DNA of 64,000 nucleotides from Zobellia uliginosa (GTDB taxonomy: Bacteria; Bacteroidota; Bacteroidia; Flavobacteriales; Flavobacteriaceae). The notes under the pieces were generated by a model, which searched no databases, had not been told where the DNA came from, and saw nothing but the letters and a program-made list of their open reading frames with translations. This document shows, one piece after another, positions 20,543-55,931 of this stretch. Numbering within the stretch: position 1 is the first letter of the stretch; each line of letters opens with the position of its first letter. The translations under genes and the position numbers were made by a program. Where the stretch lies: the NCBI RefSeq assembly GCF_900156625.1, contig NZ_FTOB01000004.1, forward strand, positions 620,001-684,000, written 5' to 3'.

Positions 20543-21559
20543 TTAAACATCGGCAGATTTAACCGTTTTAACGATTCTTCCGGCGATTTTGTATGGGTCA
20601 CCGTTAGAAGCTGGTCTTCTGTCTTCCAACCATCCTTTCCATCCGCTCTCAACAGTAGCGATAGGGATACGGATAGAGGCACCACGGTCAGAAATACCGT
20701 AGCTGAAATCATGGATCGATGCAGTTTCGTGAAGACCGGTCAAACGTTGGTCGTTGAACTCACCGTAAACGGCAATGTGTTCTTTTACTACTGGTCTGAA
20801 AGCCTCACATATTTTCTCGTAAACCTCTTTTGAGCCCGCAGTTCTTAAAGTAGTGTTAGAGAAGTTGGCGTGCATACCCGAACCATTCCAGTCCATGTCT
20901 TTTCCTAATGGTTTTGGGTGGTATTCAATATAGTAACCATATTGTTCCGATAGTCTGTCTAAAAGGTATCTGGCAACCCAAAGTTCGTCACCGGCCAATT
21001 TGGCTCCTTTGGCGAACAATTGAAATTCCCACTGGCCACAGGCAACCTCTTGGTTGATTCCTTCAAAGTTAAGTCCGGCAGCGATACATAGGTCGGCGTG
21101 CTCTTCGACCAACTGACGGCCATGTGTATTTTTACCTCCAACTGAACAGTAGTAAAGACCTTGTGGGGCAGGGTAGCCACCAACAGGGAAACCTAAAGGT
21201 AGTTGGGTATGGGCATCCATTATAAAGTATTCTTGCTCAAAACCAAACCAGAAATCGTTATCATCGTCATCAATAGTGGCTCTTCCGTTAGATTCATGAG
21301 GTGTTCCATCGGCATTAAGTACTTCGGTCATTACCAAAAATCCATCTTTTCTTGCTGGGTCTGGGAAGATAGCAACAGGCTTTAACAAGCAGTCCGAATC
21401 GCCGCCGATTGCCTGTCTCGTTGAACTTCCGTCGAAAGACCACATAGGGCAATCTTCCAATTTACCACTAAAGTCGTTTACGACCTTAGTCTTGCTACGC
21501 ATGTTTTGCGTTGGGAAATATCCGTCCAACCAGATGTATTCTAATTTAGTTTTGCTCAT
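20543..21559 (-). CDS. glnA: Glutamine synthetase type II (eukaryote-like GSII)
   Basis: A 338-residue ATP-dependent enzyme that condenses ammonium with glutamate. It begins with KLEYIWLDGYFPTQNMRSKTKV and the beta-grasp domain. Then come MWSFDGSST, the Glu ligands in FGFEQEYF, and the substrate site NGSGMHANFS. NDQRLTGLHETASI, SIRIP and LEDRRPASNGDPY follow. The length and order are those of GSII rather than the 470-residue bacterial GSI, so the usual adenylylation loop is absent. It is divergent from GSIII. Its promoter carries the dyad elements described at 21618-21690, so nitrogen control at transcription is likely. Confidence 0.95.
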   Translation of the reverse strand: MSKTKLEYIWLDGYFPTQNMRSKTKVVNDFSGKLEDCPMWSFDGSSTRQAIGGDSDCLLKPVAIFPDPARKDGFLVMTEVLNADGTPHESNGRATIDDDDNDFWFGFEQEYFIMDAHTQLPLGFPVGGYPAPQGLYYCSVGGKNTHGRQLVEEHADLCIAAGLNFEGINQEVACGQWEFQLFAKGAKLAGDELWVARYLLDRLSEQYGYYIEYHPKPLGKDMDWNGSGMHANFSNTTLRTAGSKEVYEKICEAFRPVVKEHIAVYGEFNDQRLTGLHETASIHDFSYGISDRGASIRIPIATVESGWKGWLEDRRPASNGDPYKIAGRIVKTVKSADV

Positions 21560-21593: not shown

Positions 21594-21601
21594 CAAAAAT
21601 A
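21594..21601 (-). promoter_or_regulatory. -7 promoter element of glnA
   Basis: TATTTTTG on the minus strand, an exact consensus match 35 bases before the ATG. No TTG element lies at -33; that space is occupied by AT-rich sequence and the G-rich element at 21631-21638. Confidence 0.5.
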
Positions 21602-21617
21602 TGTTTTTTACTTAATT

Positions 21618-21690
21618 ATACTAATTTTTAGGGGGGTAAATATGAAAAAATTGAGTATTATTTAGGATAGCCCTATTTTTTGAGGGGTAT
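21618..21690. promoter_or_regulatory. Paired GGGGTAT-type elements between glnA and glnN (putative nitrogen operator)
   Basis: The promoter-proximal element reads GGGGGGTAA (21631-21639), with a weak left arm ATACT (21618-21622). The distal element is a dyad ATAGCCCT-N8-AGGGGTAT (21667-21690) with 7 of 8 arm positions pairing. The T of the GTA core lies 36 and 87 bases from the first base of the glnA -7 box. The same pair with nearly the same spacing precedes glnK. Confidence 0.5.
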
Positions 21691-21770: not shown

Positions 21771-23957
21771 ATGTCGAGACAGCGATTTGATGCAATGACC
21801 GAAAGCCGGAAAAGAGAGCGTGTAGGTGTTGAGGAAAAAGGGCGACGTTCCAAGCTTTTTGGAAGCAATGTTTTTAATAAGGAGCGTATGCTACAGTATC
21901 TTACCAAAGATGCTTTGGAAAGTGTGCAGGGGGCTATTTTCTCGGGATCTAAAATAGATAGAAAGATAGCTGACCAGGTGGCCGAGGCCATGAAAACCTG
22001 GGCTATAGAAATGGGTGCTACGCACTATACGCATTGGTTTCAGCCGCTTACGGGGGCAACTGCCGAAAAGCACGATGCTTTTTTTGATCTGCTGCCTGAT
22101 GGCAGGGCCTTGGAGAAATTCGGCGGTGGTCAATTGGTGCAACAAGAGCCTGATGCTTCAAGTTTTCCAAGTGGTGGGATTCGCAATACTTTTGAAGCTC
22201 GTGGCTATACCGCATGGGACCCTACGAGTCCGGCTTTTGTTTACGATACGACACTTTGTATTCCAACAATCTTTGTTTCGTATACAGGTGAAGCTTTAGA
22301 TAATAAGGCACCGCTTTTGCGTGCCCTTAATGCCATAGACGAGGCGGCAACCGCCGTGGCAAAATATTTTGATAAAACCGTGGTCAAGGTAAATGCTACT
22401 TTGGGCTGGGAGCAAGAGTACTTCTTGGTCGATAAGGCATTGGCCCATTCACGTAGTGATATAAGTCTGACGGGGAGAACCTTGGTAGGGCATTCGGCCG
22501 CAAAGGGACAGCAACTTGATGATCATTATTTTGGGGTGATACCCTTGAGGGCCATTAGTTTTATGAAGGAACTCGAGCTGGAATGTATGCGCCTGGGTAT
22601 TCCCGTTAAGACAAGGCATAACGAAGTGGCGCCGAACCAATTTGAATTGGCCCCTGTTTTTGAAGAGGCTAATTTGGCGGTAGATCATAACCTGCTCTTG
22701 ATGGATGTCATGGACCGCATTGCGGATAAGCACAACCTTAAAGTGCTCTTTCATGAAAAACCCTTTGCCGGTATCAATGGTTCGGGTAAGCACAATAACT
22801 GGTCGCTGGCGACCGATACGGGCGTGAATTTGTTGAGTCCGGGGTCTACGCCTATGAAGAACCTTCAGTTTTTGACCTTTTTTATCAATACTATCAAGGC
22901 GGTAGATACCTATGAAGAGCTGTTGCGTTCGTCTATAGCCTCGGCGAGCAATGACCATAGGTTGGGCGCGAACGAGGCTCCGCCGGCAATCTTGTCGATA
23001 TTCGTTGGTAAGCAGTTGGGTAATGTGTTGGATGAATTGGAAGGCGTTTCCAAAGGAAAGTTGTCCCCTGAGGAAAAAACTGAGCTTAAATTGAACGTGG
23101 TAGGTAAAATACCTGAAATTCTACTTGACAATACGGATCGTAACAGGACTTCCCCCTTTGCCTTTACCGGAAATAAATTTGAAATGCGTGGCGTAGGTTC
23201 AAAAACGAACTGTGCCAAACCGATGACTATTTTGAACACTATAGTGGCCAAGCAACTGCGGGAGTTTAAAAAAGAGGTAGATGCGCTTGTCGATAAAAAG
23301 AGCCTTAAAAAGGATGAGGCCGTATTCAATGTTTTGCGGGAGTATATCAAAACTTCAAAACGCATTCGTTTTGATGGTGATGGTTATAGCGAAGATTGGC
23401 AAAAGGAAGCGGAACGCAGAAAGCTTAGTAACAATAAAACCACTCCGGCCGCCCTTCAGGTACTGACCTCAAAGCAAAGCTTGGAGCTCTTTGCATCTAT
23501 GGGGGTGATGAGCGAAAAGGAGGTTGCCGCAAGGCAAGAAGTGGAACTTGAGGCCTATATCTTGCACATACAGATAGAGGGTAGGGTGTTGAACGAATTG
23601 GTATATAGCCATATTATCCCATCGGTAATAGAATATCAGAATATTTTGATCAAGAATGTGTTGGGACTCAAAGAAATTTATGGGGCGGCCCACCGAAAAC
23701 TGACCGATGGTCAATCAGGTATTATAGAGCAGATCGCCGAACACATTGCCGAGCTTAAAAAACAGGTAGATGCAATGACGGATGCCCGTAGAAAAGCCAA
23801 TAAACTGACCGATACCCGCAAAAAAGCCTTTGCATACAGTGACGATGTCAAGCCTTATTTTGAAAAAATAAGAATGCATTGTGATAAGCTGGAAATGCTT
23901 GTGGATAACCGTTATTGGCCCTTGGTCAAATATCGGGAGTTGTTGTCTATCAAATAA
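21771..23957 (+). CDS. glnN: Glutamine synthetase type III (GSIII)
   Basis: A 728-residue enzyme of the large GSIII class (dodecamer) that makes glutamine. Class signatures are the N-terminal NVFNKERMLQYLTKDA and THYTHWFQPLTG. FPSGGIRNTFEARGYTAWDPTSPAF follows, then the Glu motif GWEQEYFLVD, HNEVAPNQFELAP, GINGSGKHNNWS and GANEAPPAIL. The long C-terminal helical part includes DGQSGIIEQIAEHIAELKKQVDAM. It is divergent from GSII and shares the 211-base intergenic region with it. A weak -7-like TATTTTAG stands at 21741-21748. Confidence 0.96.
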   Translation: MSRQRFDAMTESRKRERVGVEEKGRRSKLFGSNVFNKERMLQYLTKDALESVQGAIFSGSKIDRKIADQVAEAMKTWAIEMGATHYTHWFQPLTGATAEKHDAFFDLLPDGRALEKFGGGQLVQQEPDASSFPSGGIRNTFEARGYTAWDPTSPAFVYDTTLCIPTIFVSYTGEALDNKAPLLRALNAIDEAATAVAKYFDKTVVKVNATLGWEQEYFLVDKALAHSRSDISLTGRTLVGHSAAKGQQLDDHYFGVIPLRAISFMKELELECMRLGIPVKTRHNEVAPNQFELAPVFEEANLAVDHNLLLMDVMDRIADKHNLKVLFHEKPFAGINGSGKHNNWSLATDTGVNLLSPGSTPMKNLQFLTFFINTIKAVDTYEELLRSSIASASNDHRLGANEAPPAILSIFVGKQLGNVLDELEGVSKGKLSPEEKTELKLNVVGKIPEILLDNTDRNRTSPFAFTGNKFEMRGVGSKTNCAKPMTILNTIVAKQLREFKKEVDALVDKKSLKKDEAVFNVLREYIKTSKRIRFDGDGYSEDWQKEAERRKLSNNKTTPAALQVLTSKQSLELFASMGVMSEKEVAARQEVELEAYILHIQIEGRVLNELVYSHIIPSVIEYQNILIKNVLGLKEIYGAAHRKLTDGQSGIIEQIAEHIAELKKQVDAMTDARRKANKLTDTRKKAFAYSDDVKPYFEKIRMHCDKLEMLVDNRYWPLVKYRELLSIK

Positions 23958-34084: not shown

Positions 34085-34531
34085 ATGAATATAGATGATT
34101 TAAACTGGAAAATACTCAAATGCCTTCAGGCAAATGCGCGTGAAACCTTTGCCGATATTGGGCGCCAAGTCGGCTTAACGGCACCGGCAGTAGCGGAGCG
34201 CATCAAGAAGATGGAAGACCTGGGAATTATAGAAGGGTATATTACTAAAGTGTCTCATGCAAAGACGGGTCATCACTTAAAGGCCATTATTACCCTTAGG
34301 GCCTTTATGGGGAAATTAAAACCTTTTTTAGAGATGGTGAAGACCTATAAAGAGGTTGTGAACTGCTATAGGATTACGGGTAACGAGAACATTGTAATGG
34401 AGGTAGTGCTGAAAGATCAGTTTCATTTGGAGCGCTTTATCGATAAGCTGATTCAGTATGGTGAAACACGCACCCATATCATTCTTTCCAATGTGGTGTC
34501 AAGCGCGCCTATTGGGAAGAACACTTTTTAA
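34085..34531 (+). CDS. Lrp/AsnC family transcriptional regulator
   Basis: A 148-residue regulator. The N-terminal winged HTH starts at LNWKILKCLQANARETFADIGRQVGLTAPAVAERIKKMEDLGII. The RAM ligand-binding domain follows (residues about 65-148, AIITLRAFMG...VVNCYRITGNENIVMEVV). It would bind DNA as an octamer-type assembly and respond to an amino acid. The target cannot be inferred from the neighbours, which are a four-helix protein and a T9SS cargo gene. Confidence 0.93.
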   Translation: MNIDDLNWKILKCLQANARETFADIGRQVGLTAPAVAERIKKMEDLGIIEGYITKVSHAKTGHHLKAIITLRAFMGKLKPFLEMVKTYKEVVNCYRITGNENIVMEVVLKDQFHLERFIDKLIQYGETRTHIILSNVVSSAPIGKNTF

Positions 34532-40684: not shown

Positions 40685-41749
40685 TTAGAAAGAGTAGACC
40701 GCAGCCAACACGAAAGAAGAAAGACCTCCAATTGGGTTTCCATCATTGTCAATGAATACTTCTTCTGAAGCACTGTCTAATCTTAATTCTGGCTTGATGA
40801 TCAAGTCACCAATAGTTGCGCTACCGGTAAGGGTTACAGCAAATACACTTGCATCGCCATCAGCATCTGATCCACCAACTGCTCCAAAGAAATCGGTTTC
40901 AGCAAAATATTCACCTCTTAATCCTATAGAGAAAGTATCGGAAGTTGCTAACTGTGGGTAAACTGCCAAACCTGCAAAGCTACCAACACCGTCATCTTCG
41001 TCACCATCAAAATAAGCAGCGTTCAGTCCTAGGAAGAAAGTATCGGAAAGATCAAAACCACCTGTGAAATCTACTTCGTAAGAACCGTTATCAATTAAAA
41101 GGTTCAAATATTGACCGCTGTAGCCTAATTGAGCTCCCCAAGCGTATTGTCCTGTTGGGTTGAACTCTGTGAGGTCAGTTGGGTTCATTACCGCTAACAT
41201 TAAGCTGAAATCATCAGATAAAGCAAAATCTGCTTTAAGACCGGTATGTGAAAACGGACCGTAAGAGAACAAGTAAGATGTGCTGTAGTTAAAGTTGGCA
41301 ACCGGAGAGATAACCTCGTAACCTAAGAAGGTGTTAAAGTTACCAAAGGTTAATGTTACGGCATCACTTACATTCCAGTAAGCATACAATTGGTTAACAA
41401 TGTTTCCTGTAGAAGAATACATAGGAGATTCAAAAATAGCGTCCGTTCCTCTTGGACCGAAAACTAAATCGGCAACAAAACCTACTTTTTCACCTTCATA
41501 AGCACCAATAACATTGGCCATACCTAAGGCGAATCCTGGTAGGTTAGCGAATGAGCTTCCTGGAGCTGGAGCATCTTCTCCGTTAGGTGCATTTAAATTT
41601 GCTCTATAATACGCATCAACAGAACCACTGAAAGAAAATTTTGGCTTTGATTCTTCTTCCTCTTGTGCAACAACCGCTGTTGCAGAGAAAAGTAGTATGG
41701 CTAGGAAAAATAGATTTTTTACGTATTTTGTATTTGTAATCGCTTTCAT
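40685..41749 (-). CDS. OmpL-like beta-barrel porin of the ammonium locus
   Basis: A 354-residue outer-membrane protein with signal peptide (ATAVVAQ) and an acidic linker EEEES. A barrel of some 16-18 strands follows, ending in FVLAAVYSF with terminal Phe. Strand and loop patterns such as FSFSGSVDAYYRANLN, NQLYAYWNVSDAVTLTFGNF and IKPELRLDS match the putative beta-barrel porin-2 (OmpL-like) family. It lies after amtB on the same strand, so it likely lets ammonium or other small N compounds reach AmtB, an inference from position. A hairpin between the two genes could lower its expression. Confidence 0.83.
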   Translation of the reverse strand: MKAITNTKYVKNLFFLAILLFSATAVVAQEEEESKPKFSFSGSVDAYYRANLNAPNGEDAPAPGSSFANLPGFALGMANVIGAYEGEKVGFVADLVFGPRGTDAIFESPMYSSTGNIVNQLYAYWNVSDAVTLTFGNFNTFLGYEVISPVANFNYSTSYLFSYGPFSHTGLKADFALSDDFSLMLAVMNPTDLTEFNPTGQYAWGAQLGYSGQYLNLLIDNGSYEVDFTGGFDLSDTFFLGLNAAYFDGDEDDGVGSFAGLAVYPQLATSDTFSIGLRGEYFAETDFFGAVGGSDADGDASVFAVTLTGSATIGDLIIKPELRLDSASEEVFIDNDGNPIGGLSSFVLAAVYSF

Positions 41750-41861: not shown

Positions 41862-43094
41862 TTAGTCGTTTATGAAATCTGGGTAAGCATCCATACCGTG
41901 CTCGTGAATGTCAAGACCTTCAATCTCTTCTTCTTTGCTCACTCTAAGTCCCATTACCGCTTTTAGGGTTCCAAGAATAGCGAACGTGCAAATTACACAG
42001 AAGACACCTATGATCAATACGCCGTATAGTTGTGTCATGAACTGTTCTCCGCCAGCTTTGGCACCGAAGATGCCTACTGCCAATGTTCCCCAGATACCAC
42101 ATACCAAGTGAACGGCAACGGCACCAACAGGATCATCTAATTTTAATTTGTCAATCAAGGCAACGGCAAGAACAATCAGTAGACCGGCCAAAAACCCGAT
42201 GGCTACGGCTTCGTTGGGAGACATAAGGTCGGCCCCTGCAGTGATGCCTACAAGACCACCAAGAATACCGTTAAGGAACATGGTCAAATCGAGGTTCTTG
42301 TATAATATGGTAGATAAAATCATGGCTCCGAAGCCACCGGCTGCTGCGGCTAAACTTGTGGTAACCAATACTAGGGAAGTCAATTCGGGGTCGGCAGATA
42401 ATACAGAGCCACCGTTGAAGCCAAACCATCCTAACCAAAGGATAAGTACACCTGCCGTAGCTAAAGGTATGTTGTGACCTGGTATGGCCTTAGGCTTGCC
42501 GTTATCGTCAAATTTGCCGATACGTGATCCCAATAAGAATATAGCGACCAATGCGGCCCATCCGCCTACAGAGTGAACCAAGGTAGAACCTGCGAAATCA
42601 TAGAAACCCCATGAATCCAAGAAACCGCCGCCCCATTTCCAGGCACCTACTATAGGATATACAAGTCCTACGTAGATAACAGTGAAAATCATAAAGGCAC
42701 CAATTTTAATACGTTCTGCAACGGCACCTGATACTATGGTTGCTGCCGTAGCTGCGAACATACCTTGAAATAAGAAGTCTGTCCACCACGTGTAGCCACC
42801 ATCGGCATATTCAGGGGTCATTCCGCCTTCTGGAGCGGCAATGCCGAATCCGGCGAATCCGAATATACCTGAAGATCCTTCTTCAAAACCGGGGTACATC
42901 ATATTAAAGCCCCACGCGTAGTAAAGTAAAAGTCCACCTGTAATAATAAAGATGTTCTTGAATAATATGTTTATTGTATTTTTTTGTCTGGTAAGGCCGA
43001 TTTCTAAAAAAGAGAATCCGGTGTGCATGAAGAATACCAAGGCGGTAGCCACCATCATCCAAACGTTGTTTGCTGTAAATAATCCTGCGTCCAT
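41862..43094 (-). CDS. amtB: Ammonium transporter AmtB
   Basis: A 410-residue trimeric inner-membrane channel with 11 helices. Both pore histidines are present (STLVHSVGGWAAL and AVAVHLVCGIWG), as are GFSFLEIGLTRQKN and the vestibule Phe/Trp-rich segments. The C-terminal tail that contacts PII is MGLRVSKEEEIEGLDIHEHGMDAYPD. The gene follows glnK by 26 bases, so it is controlled with it from the 43483-43581 region. Confidence 0.97.
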   Translation of the reverse strand: MDAGLFTANNVWMMVATALVFFMHTGFSFLEIGLTRQKNTINILFKNIFIITGGLLLYYAWGFNMMYPGFEEGSSGIFGFAGFGIAAPEGGMTPEYADGGYTWWTDFLFQGMFAATAATIVSGAVAERIKIGAFMIFTVIYVGLVYPIVGAWKWGGGFLDSWGFYDFAGSTLVHSVGGWAALVAIFLLGSRIGKFDDNGKPKAIPGHNIPLATAGVLILWLGWFGFNGGSVLSADPELTSLVLVTTSLAAAAGGFGAMILSTILYKNLDLTMFLNGILGGLVGITAGADLMSPNEAVAIGFLAGLLIVLAVALIDKLKLDDPVGAVAVHLVCGIWGTLAVGIFGAKAGGEQFMTQLYGVLIIGVFCVICTFAILGTLKAVMGLRVSKEEEIEGLDIHEHGMDAYPDFIND

Positions 43095-43120: not shown

Positions 43121-43459
43121 TTAGTTGATTCCGGCTTGCCCGCTTTCTTTGGTCCTTATTCTATATGCTTCAATGATTTCTGAAACAAAGATTTTTCCGT
43201 CACCGACATTGCCGGTGTAGGCCGCTTCAAGAATGGTGTCGACAGTACGCTGTAAAAACTCATCCGATACTACTATAGAAAGATACCTTCGTTGAATGTC
43301 GCTCGTACTATAAGAGATTCCCCTATATACGTGACCTTGCTTTTCGTTTCCGACTCCGGTTACATCCCAGTAACTGAAGAAGTTGACCTCTATTTGATGC
43401 AACGCCTTCTTGACGTCGTCAAACTTCGATTTTCTAATGATTGCCTCGATTTGTTTCAT
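43121..43459 (-). CDS. glnK: PII nitrogen-regulatory protein
   Basis: A 112-residue trimeric signal protein that senses 2-oxoglutarate and ATP/ADP and blocks AmtB. It starts KQIEAIIRKSKFDDVKKAL. The T-loop (GHVYRGISYSTSD) keeps the Tyr at the position that is uridylylated in E. coli, with the same spacing to the preceding Tyr-Arg-Gly. The B-loop region VGDGKIFVSEIIEAYRIRT is standard. Whether the Tyr is modified here is not known. It is first in the glnK-amtB(-porin) run. Confidence 0.95.
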   Translation of the reverse strand: MKQIEAIIRKSKFDDVKKALHQIEVNFFSYWDVTGVGNEKQGHVYRGISYSTSDIQRRYLSIVVSDEFLQRTVDTILEAAYTGNVGDGKIFVSEIIEAYRIRTKESGQAGIN

Positions 43460-43482: not shown

Positions 43483-43490
43483 CAAATGTA
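43483..43490 (-). promoter_or_regulatory. -7 promoter element of glnK-amtB
   Basis: TACATTTG on the minus strand, an exact TAnnTTTG match about 24 bases before the glnK ATG. The -33 position has no TTG; the G/C-rich element at 43503-43527 sits there instead, which is usual for promoters that need an activator. Confidence 0.55.
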
Positions 43491-43502: not shown

Positions 43503-43581
43503 TAACACCCATAAAATTTGGGGGTATATGTATTAATTTTTATGTTTATAGGAATTATACCCCCTTAAAATTTGGGGGTAT
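43503..43581. promoter_or_regulatory. Two GGGGGTAT/ATACCCCC dyads upstream of glnK (putative nitrogen operator)
   Basis: The distal site is perfect: ATACCCCC-N9-GGGGGTAT (43557-43581). The proximal site keeps the right arm GGGGGTAT (43520-43527) with the same 9-base spacer and a weaker left arm (43503-43510). Both spacers end AAAATTT. The centres are 54 bases apart, about five helical turns. The glnA promoter has a matching pair. Confidence 0.6.
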
Positions 43582-54767: not shown

Positions 54768-55931
54768 ATGCCTAGAATATTGGTGATCGAAGATGAATCC
54801 GCAATCAGACGGGTGTTGGTAAAGATCCTTTCGGAAGAAAGCGACACCTATCAATTGGAAGAGGCCGAAGATGGCCTTAAAGGTTTGGAAGCGGTAAAGA
54901 ACAATGATTATGACCTAGTGCTCTGTGATATTAAGATGCCCAAGATGGATGGTGTTGAGGTACTCGAAGCGGCCCGAAAAATTAAGCCGGAGACCCCTTT
55001 TATCATGATTTCGGGACATGGAGACCTCGATACGGCCGTCAATACGATGCGTATAGGGGCTTTTGACTACATTTCTAAACCGCCCGATTTAAATCGACTT
55101 TTGACCACGGTGCGCAATGCACTGGACCGTAAGGAATTGGTGGTCGAGAATAAGATCTTGAAAAAGAAGGTCAGTAAGAATTATGAAATGATCGGTAAGA
55201 GCGAAGAAATCACCATCATTAAGGATATGATCGAAAAAGTGGCGCCTACCGATGCCCGTGTTCTTATTACGGGGGCAAACGGTACGGGAAAAGAACTGGT
55301 GGCCCATTGGCTCCATGAAAAGAGCCAACGTAGCGGCGCTCCGTTTATAGAGGTCAATTGTGCGGCCATTCCCTCTGAACTTATAGAGAGCGAGCTTTTC
55401 GGACATGTAAAAGGGGCATTTACCTCGGCGGTGAAAGATCGTGCGGGAAAATTTGAAGCGGCGAATAAGGGAACGATATTTTTAGATGAAATCGGTGATA
55501 TGAGCCTATCGGCACAAGCCAAGGTCCTAAGGGCATTGCAAGAGAGCAAAATATCCCGCGTTGGTAGTGATAAGGATATTAAGGTAAATGTACGTGTCTT
55601 GGCGGCGACCAACAAAGACCTAAAAAAGGAAATCGAAGAGGGGAACTTTCGTGAAGATCTCTATCATCGATTGGCCGTTATTCTTATAAAAGTCCCTTCC
55701 TTGAACGATAGGCGAGACGATATCCCTTTGCTTATAGAGCATTTCGCGAAAAAAATAGTCAATGAACAAGGTATAGCCCCTAAGGCTTTCTCTGCAAAAG
55801 CGATCAAGCTTTTAAAGAGTTATGACTGGACAGGTAATATCAGGGAGCTCAGAAACGTTGTGGAACGATTGATAATCTTGGGTGGAAGTGAGGTTACTGA
55901 AGAAGATGTCAAACTTTTTGCCAGTAAGTAA
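54768..55931 (+). CDS. NtrC-type response regulator without HTH and with GAFTSA loop
   Basis: A 387-residue protein. The receiver domain (1-120) has the phospho-acceptor Asp54 in VLCDIKMPKMDG and the Lys in YISKPPD. The AAA+ domain (about 140-380) has Walker A GANGTGKE (169-176), Walker B GTIFLDEIGD and the sensor II part WTGNIRELRNVVERL. The sigma-54 contact loop, normally GAFTGA, reads GAFTSA (216-221). The protein ends just after the AAA+ lid (EDVKLFASK), so the Fis-type DNA-binding domain is missing. It follows the DUF6268 gene by 12 bases. No sensor kinase is adjacent. Confidence 0.92.
   Translation: MPRILVIEDESAIRRVLVKILSEESDTYQLEEAEDGLKGLEAVKNNDYDLVLCDIKMPKMDGVEVLEAARKIKPETPFIMISGHGDLDTAVNTMRIGAFDYISKPPDLNRLLTTVRNALDRKELVVENKILKKKVSKNYEMIGKSEEITIIKDMIEKVAPTDARVLITGANGTGKELVAHWLHEKSQRSGAPFIEVNCAAIPSELIESELFGHVKGAFTSAVKDRAGKFEAANKGTIFLDEIGDMSLSAQAKVLRALQESKISRVGSDKDIKVNVRVLAATNKDLKKEIEEGNFREDLYHRLAVILIKVPSLNDRRDDIPLLIEHFAKKIVNEQGIAPKAFSAKAIKLLKSYDWTGNIRELRNVVERLIILGGSEVTEEDVKLFASK

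Follow-up and report, generated by a model that had tools for sequence, protein, structure and literature searches.

The glnA promoter and the promoter of the glnK-amtB-porin operon of Zobellia uliginosa very probably carry a tandem operator belonging to a nitrogen regulon shared within the Flavobacteriaceae, and a conserved two-site operator of this putative regulon is well supported by sequence comparison. Both promoters lie in the window, as we call the whole analysed stretch of 64,000 nucleotides. The original prediction held that they share a paired element at the same distances, that this is unlikely by chance, and that it points to a common regulator of ammonium uptake and assimilation; such a shared regulator is strongly supported by the conservation of the sites and by the genes behind them. 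The breakdown of algal polymers, in which marine flavobacteria have a major part, requires nitrogen, and an operator of defined, fixed geometry makes the control of nitrogen genes in flavobacteria experimentally tractable.

In the window, glnA (20543..21559, minus strand), which encodes a glutamine synthetase of 338 aa (Pfam PF00120 and PF03951), is divergent from glnN (21771..23957, plus strand), a type III glutamine synthetase gene (Pfam GSIII_N). Upstream of glnA, on the minus strand, the distal dyad ATACCCCT-N8-AGGGCTAT (21667..21690), read directly and found by a genome matrix scan, is followed after 51 bp by the proximal site TTTACCCCCCTAAAAATTAG (21621..21640), a strong half-site that includes TTTACCCCCC at 21640-21631, and after another 37 bp by the sigma-A box TATTTTTG (21594..21601), of the form TAnnTTTG, whose position is kept in relatives. 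From the T of TAC to the first T of the box, the two sites are 37 and 88 positions away; the distances given previously, 36 and 87, are correct as counts of the bases between, and the sites lie where they had been placed. The dyad centres would be at about -38 and -90 if the position of the sigma-A box in Flavobacterium psychrophilum, put at -12 to -5 in a passage of PMC9723704, is transferred to this promoter. In relatives, the consensus of the distal dyad is TACCCYWAAAAAAATAGGG(G)TA, with the frame CCC-N11-GGG. No clear TTTG -33 element was found in the window under the proximal glnA site, while some relatives do carry TTTTTTTTG in the -33 region of their glnA promoters. Inspection by eye of the window between the glnA site and the start revealed no GG-N10-GC sigma-54 (-24/-12) element.

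The second promoter precedes an operon, likewise on the minus strand, of glnK (43121..43459; PII, 112 aa, Pfam P-II), the ammonium transporter gene amtB (41862..43094; Pfam Ammonium_transp) and, behind amtB, the gene of a BBP2 outer-membrane porin (40685..41749), which opens the operon in many relatives. Its distal dyad, ATACCCCC-N9-GGGGGTAT (43557..43581), and its near-complete proximal dyad, ATACCCCC-N9-GGGTGTTA (43503..43527), were both read directly, and the sigma-A box TACATTTG (43483..43490) was read directly and matched by pattern. The layout runs dyad, 54 bp, dyad, 36 bp, TACATTTG, with 36 and 90 positions from the T of TAC to the first T of the box; 35 and 89, as previously reported, are the bases between. 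Hence the two promoters have the layout in common, as the original prediction had it, and the element itself is not identical, the sites being 51 bp apart at glnA and 54 bp at glnK and the proximal one being a half-site at glnA and a near-complete dyad at glnK. Between the two glnK sites lies CATAAAAAT (43536..43544, minus strand), an element common to ammonium-uptake promoters: ATAAAAAT or ATAAAAG was present between the sites in 12 of 15 glnK or porin promoters against 2 of 19 glnA promoters. CATAAAAAT is possibly a contact for the alpha subunit (UP-like) or a bend. The gene order of the operon varies among glnK-amtB-porin, porin-glnK-amtB and porin-amtB-glnK, and the operator remains at the front throughout; this constancy, and the porin moving with glnK and amtB, suggest that the BBP2 porin serves ammonium uptake, and the operator thus marks it as part of that process.

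The conservation of the glnA promoter was followed in the best 80 of 593 glnA relatives (identity 84-94 percent, mostly Flavobacteriaceae by name), which together with the window gave 81 promoters, most of the relatives showing two CCC-rich sites upstream of glnA. A dyad was accepted when at least 9 of 12 letters matched at 105-150 bases from the start codon, and dinucleotide shuffles (n=1620) served as the control. A dyad so placed was present in 62/81 glnA promoters and 39/1620 shuffles; joined to a second CCC at 49-55 bp, it was found in 54/81 promoters and no shuffles, and joined to a TAnnTTTG sigma box at 84-90 bp, in 37/81 and 0/1620. All three elements at fixed spacing occurred in 29/81 promoters and in 0/1620 shuffles, counts that are non-independent events because the glnA sequences are akin, although the glnA promoters are unrelated to those of glnK and the porin and yet have the same layout. 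This footprint of the DNA upstream of glnA upholds the view that motif and geometry exceed chance. Across relatives, the proximal site follows the distal one by 50-54 positions, and the box follows the distal CCC by 85-89 and the proximal site by 33-36. The dyad criterion excluded 19/81 promoters, several of which have slightly altered sites by eye; any site was absent by eye in about 8 of the 81 (L007, L021, L029, L064, L076, L077, L080 and L082).

On the glnN side, where the original prediction allowed for a possible action of the distal dyad, a TAnnTTWG box lies 3-109 bp from the dyad in 48/52 loci with a divergent glnN and a dyad, such boxes being frequent in AT-rich DNA and their distance from the dyad variable. 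Over the 52 loci, the distances group at roughly 26, 34, 45, 55, 63, 71 and 81 bp, which hints at phasing, though only at a borderline level. The 26 distinct distances gave a p of 0.05 for periodicity at 10.5 bp, and the best scanned period, 9.2 (p 0.01), is not helical; all 52 distances give a stronger periodicity, but these values are non-independent and phasing is not claimed.

A strict pattern of the whole promoter was matched in 112/299 genomes of the family, with 158 matches (hand sum) against 3 for the reversed pattern, and was absent from 187/299, some of which carry a relaxed match. Thirty loci were cut out, and 26 directly face glnA, glnK or an operon of porin and amt or glnK: 14 face glnA, whose start lies 25-45 bp from the box, 5 face glnK at 20-26 bp from the box, and 7 face a BBP2 porin gene followed by amt or glnK at 2-73 bp from the box. 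One more (L114) faces gltB at 281 bp with a regular pair and a divergent porin-glnK, and another adjoins glnN with purK about 255 bp downstream; a link to a nitrogen gene is missing in 2 of the 30 (L091, L106). At 19 further loci, glnA, glnK or an operon-opening porin gene begins 0-40 bp after the site in 20 of 20 cases, 4 of these 20 sites overlapping with the 30 loci; the organism's own gltB region, which has no strict site, makes the twentieth locus fetched. These genome-wide scans thus did not find the pair spread randomly without a nitrogen link, the outcome that would have spoken against the original prediction.

Looser or wider searches were less discriminating. In the genome of Z. uliginosa itself, a loose tandem pattern occurred at 6 places, 2 of them at glnA and glnK, with none for the reversed control; the other 4 do not precede any nitrogen gene searched for, one of them preceding a gene for an FGE-sulfatase, so that the loose pattern alone is unspecific. 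Across a sample of the phylum, 13/345 genomes matched, 6/37 within the family and 7/308 outside it (hand count), with 4 for the reversed control. None of the searched nitrogen genes lay behind the 7 matches outside the family, and only chance is seen there. Genus g127 has the strict pattern in 0/22 genomes and lacks glnK in 5/5 tested, a joint absence that speaks for the shared operator. For glnK, 30 genomes were tested: 24 that lack a strict match, 4 that were reached through loci and unscanned for the pattern, and G264 and G165, with one site; 13/30 gave a glnK match, that of G264 being weak. Among the 14 loci, a relaxed site lies upstream of glnK or further up in L310, L311, L314, L315 and L318, two loci (L309, L316) are doubtful and two (L321, L322) hold distant PII proteins. 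No site was found within 1.5 kb upstream of glnK in L312, L313, L317, L319 and L320 (in genomes G064, G020, G633, G034 and G187), where the operon may start further up.

Two further genes deserve mention here. The organism's own gltB (L136, L137, C9) has five runs of at least 4 C or G at 192-297 bp before its start; these lie at an odd distance from the sigma box, unlike at glnA and glnK. At a locus of genome G176 (L132, C9:493006-496101), a strict site at 1501-1596 stands 13 bp before the alanine dehydrogenase gene ald (361-1488), the gene being preceded by a sigma box and, by eye, by three CCC...GGG-like sites spaced about 52 bp from one another, an arrangement seen in this one genome only.

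Matrix scans tested single dyads against genome sequences. The matrix was a sequence-only model of 52 distal glnA sites from relatives, the window's own site left out. In the genome of Z. uliginosa, scoring was confined to the best 150 of 4919 first-look candidates, with 31 matches listed; among the candidates scored, the window's glnA dyad ranked 1 (22.7 bits, E 6e-4) and the distal glnK dyad ranked 2 (16.4 bits, E 0.07), and the proximal sites reached 12.3 bits at glnK (rank 16) and 10.0 bits at glnA (rank 30). Ranks 3 and 4 fell to two likely terminators 4 kb apart (C12:248912-248938 and C12:252973-252999), both of them C/G dyads that have A-rich loops and T runs. In the small genome G166, of which 1.41 Mb was scanned, the glnK pair took ranks 1 and 2 with 30.1 and 28.1 bits, and the glnA/glnN site, at 15.6 bits, came about tenth, amid chance matches of 15-20 bits. 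Single dyads are therefore only partly specific, and specificity lies in the pair and its spacing.

From these observations, a mechanism may be proposed. A small regulon of glnA and the glnK-amtB-porin operon, joined in single genomes by gltB and alanine dehydrogenase, would be controlled by one dimeric regulator that binds a dyad TACCC-N11-GGGTA centred at about -90 and, with its centre at about -38, a further dyad or half-dyad, just upstream of the sigma-A TAnnTTTG box. The column frequencies of the operator read A-C-C-C, Y, an A-tract of about seven, T-A and G-G-G with AT flanks. Being five helical turns apart, the sites would lie on the same face of the DNA; the distal dimer would aid cooperatively, and the alpha subunit could be accommodated between the two dimers. 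The analysis shows the sequence, its conservation, the spacing and the linkage to genes; from these we infer the single regulator, the activation and nitrogen shortage as the signal, and activation by one dimeric regulator is likely. The proximal dimer would overlap the -33 region, so that a weak promoter would probably be activated when nitrogen is short.

The same geometry would also suit repression, with the two dimers, 52 bp apart, enclosing the -33 region in a small loop that keeps the genes off when nitrogen is plentiful. The proximal site does lie over the -33 region, the two sites are separated by close to a whole number of turns, and nitrogen repressors are known (GlnR, AmtR and NrpR). 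We nevertheless consider such a loop unlikely: in the window, the proximal site is without a clear TTTG -33 element, as expected of an activator-dependent promoter, a weak point since some relatives have one. That the dyads are RNA hairpins or terminators instead of DNA operators is scarcely credible. The distal glnK dyad folds at -13.2 kcal/mol and ranks 3 and 4 of the matrix scan look like terminators, but the dyads stand upstream of the sigma box and at fixed spacing to it, the proximal glnA site is unfolded as RNA, and no terminator was found at the promoter. Among Rfam elements, the window matched three tRNAs only (gathering scores).

As to the protein, the original prediction offered regulators of the CRP/FNR, Lrp or two-component type, and these have fared differently. 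A CRP/FNR-type, NtcA-like activator that would occupy the two sites as a class II plus class I pair is improbable. The two-dimer geometry near -40 and -90 recalls tandem CRP-type promoters, and the Crp of G166 has relatives in 17/20 motif genomes; against it, the site-bearing genomes G264, G139 and G165 (completeness 92, 86 and 89 percent) have no relative of it at E 1e-15, an absence that is provisional given their incompleteness, the single CRP-type protein above the cut-off in G166 is unrelated to that of G264 at that threshold, G139 has none above the cut-off, and the half-sites, 14 bp apart, are wider than CRP half-sites. Lrp-1 (34085..34531, plus strand), an Lrp/AsnC regulator whose gene in the window is flanked by glnA on one side and glnK on the other, was examined as a candidate and is unsupported. 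It stays near the sites in many genomes, a nearness that fits general conservation of gene order, and is present in 31/40 genomes (E 1e-20), leaving nine without it; it is missing from G014, G171, G178 and G278, which have sites before both glnA and the glnK operon, and from G165 and G264, with one site each. As the regulator, Lrp-1 is very improbable. For the two-component type, the NtrC-like gene near the G166 site (G166:C4:243260-244435) encodes a protein that stops short of any helix-turn-helix, and so lacks a DNA-binding end, and that carries GAFTSA instead of GAFTGA (by eye). A 58 percent identical relative of this copy, an NtrC-like response regulator, is encoded at 54768-55931 in the window.

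Of the three, the Lrp type is still a candidate. Lrp-2 is found in 19/20 motif genomes and missing from G118 (99 percent complete, one contig), which has a glnK site; Lrp-3 is found in 20/20 by secondary matches, and 10/10 copies fetched share 77-94 percent identity with the G166 protein. Both occur in genomes without a strict match as well, so their presence is compatible with a regulatory role without singling them out. In G176, the Lrp-2 gene (C9:492021) lies about 2 kb from the operator-bearing ald on the same contig; the G166 Lrp-2 gene has the same neighbourhood of metallopeptidase and tRNA-ligase genes, but without ald. AldR, an Lrp-type protein adjacent to ald, controls ald in other bacteria. 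The ald site in G176 raises the odds for the Lrp family from doubtful to somewhat below even, and Lrp-3 or Lrp-2, taken together, is our leading guess at that level. The same site lifts a lineage-specific Lrp-type system from unlikely to a tentative possibility: Lrp-3 or Lrp-2, as an amino-acid sensor of the Lrp/AsnC type that hardly varies, would activate sigma-A promoters in class II plus class I manner from an operator with two rigidly spaced sites. Were this to hold, glutamine synthetase, PII-AmtB and an outer-membrane porin dedicated to ammonium would be switched on as one module, replacing NtrC, GlnR or NtcA.

Other candidates fell away. For an IscR-like Rrf2 regulator, matches were found in 30/39 genomes, and there were none in the motif genomes G171, G268 and G139 nor in G046, which has a relaxed site. 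A regulator controlling its own gene might appear at third place in G166 (19.7 bits), near an AraC-type gene, which is chance level. Around 20 loci, searches with seven E. coli seeds found no consistent neighbouring regulator, with three Lrp, one Crp and two response regulators seen. The list of G166 regulators is incomplete, covering contigs C1-C29 (1.41 Mb of about 1.7) with 16 E. coli seeds, by which other families could be missed; of contigs C30 and C31, the first 20 kb were read.

No description of a nitrogen operator or regulator of Flavobacteriaceae was found by title or abstract start in the full-text papers searched, most subscription journals falling outside that scope, and the passages of PMC5069720, PMC12596196 and PMC9723704 drawn on here mention no such operator.

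Several known systems invite comparison. IscR type 2 sites resemble the operator described here in their CC-N13-GG frame, in the T-R that precedes the right arm and in being flanked by AT-rich DNA, whereas Rrf2 proteins are wholly absent from the motif genomes G171, G268 and G139. Control of gltBDF, glnA and ald by Lrp/AsnC proteins is known from E. coli, haloarchaea and AldR; these systems resemble the one proposed here in AT-rich dyads, multiple sites and nitrogen genes, with Lrp-2 lying near the operator-bearing ald in G176, although a fixed 52 bp pair is not known as part of the Lrp consensus. GlnR/TnrA in Firmicutes, GlnR/AmtR in Actinobacteria and NtcA in cyanobacteria act at dyads before nitrogen genes such as glnA and glnK-amtB; the dyad sequence here differs from theirs, and outside the family the 7/308 matching genomes have no searched nitrogen gene behind the match. 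The NtrC regulon of Proteobacteria also targets glnA and glnK-amtB through paired upstream dyads. Its target genes, paired dyads and biological role are alike to those of the regulon proposed here, in which, however, a sigma-A TAnnTTTG box stands at fixed distance and no sigma-54 element was seen by eye.
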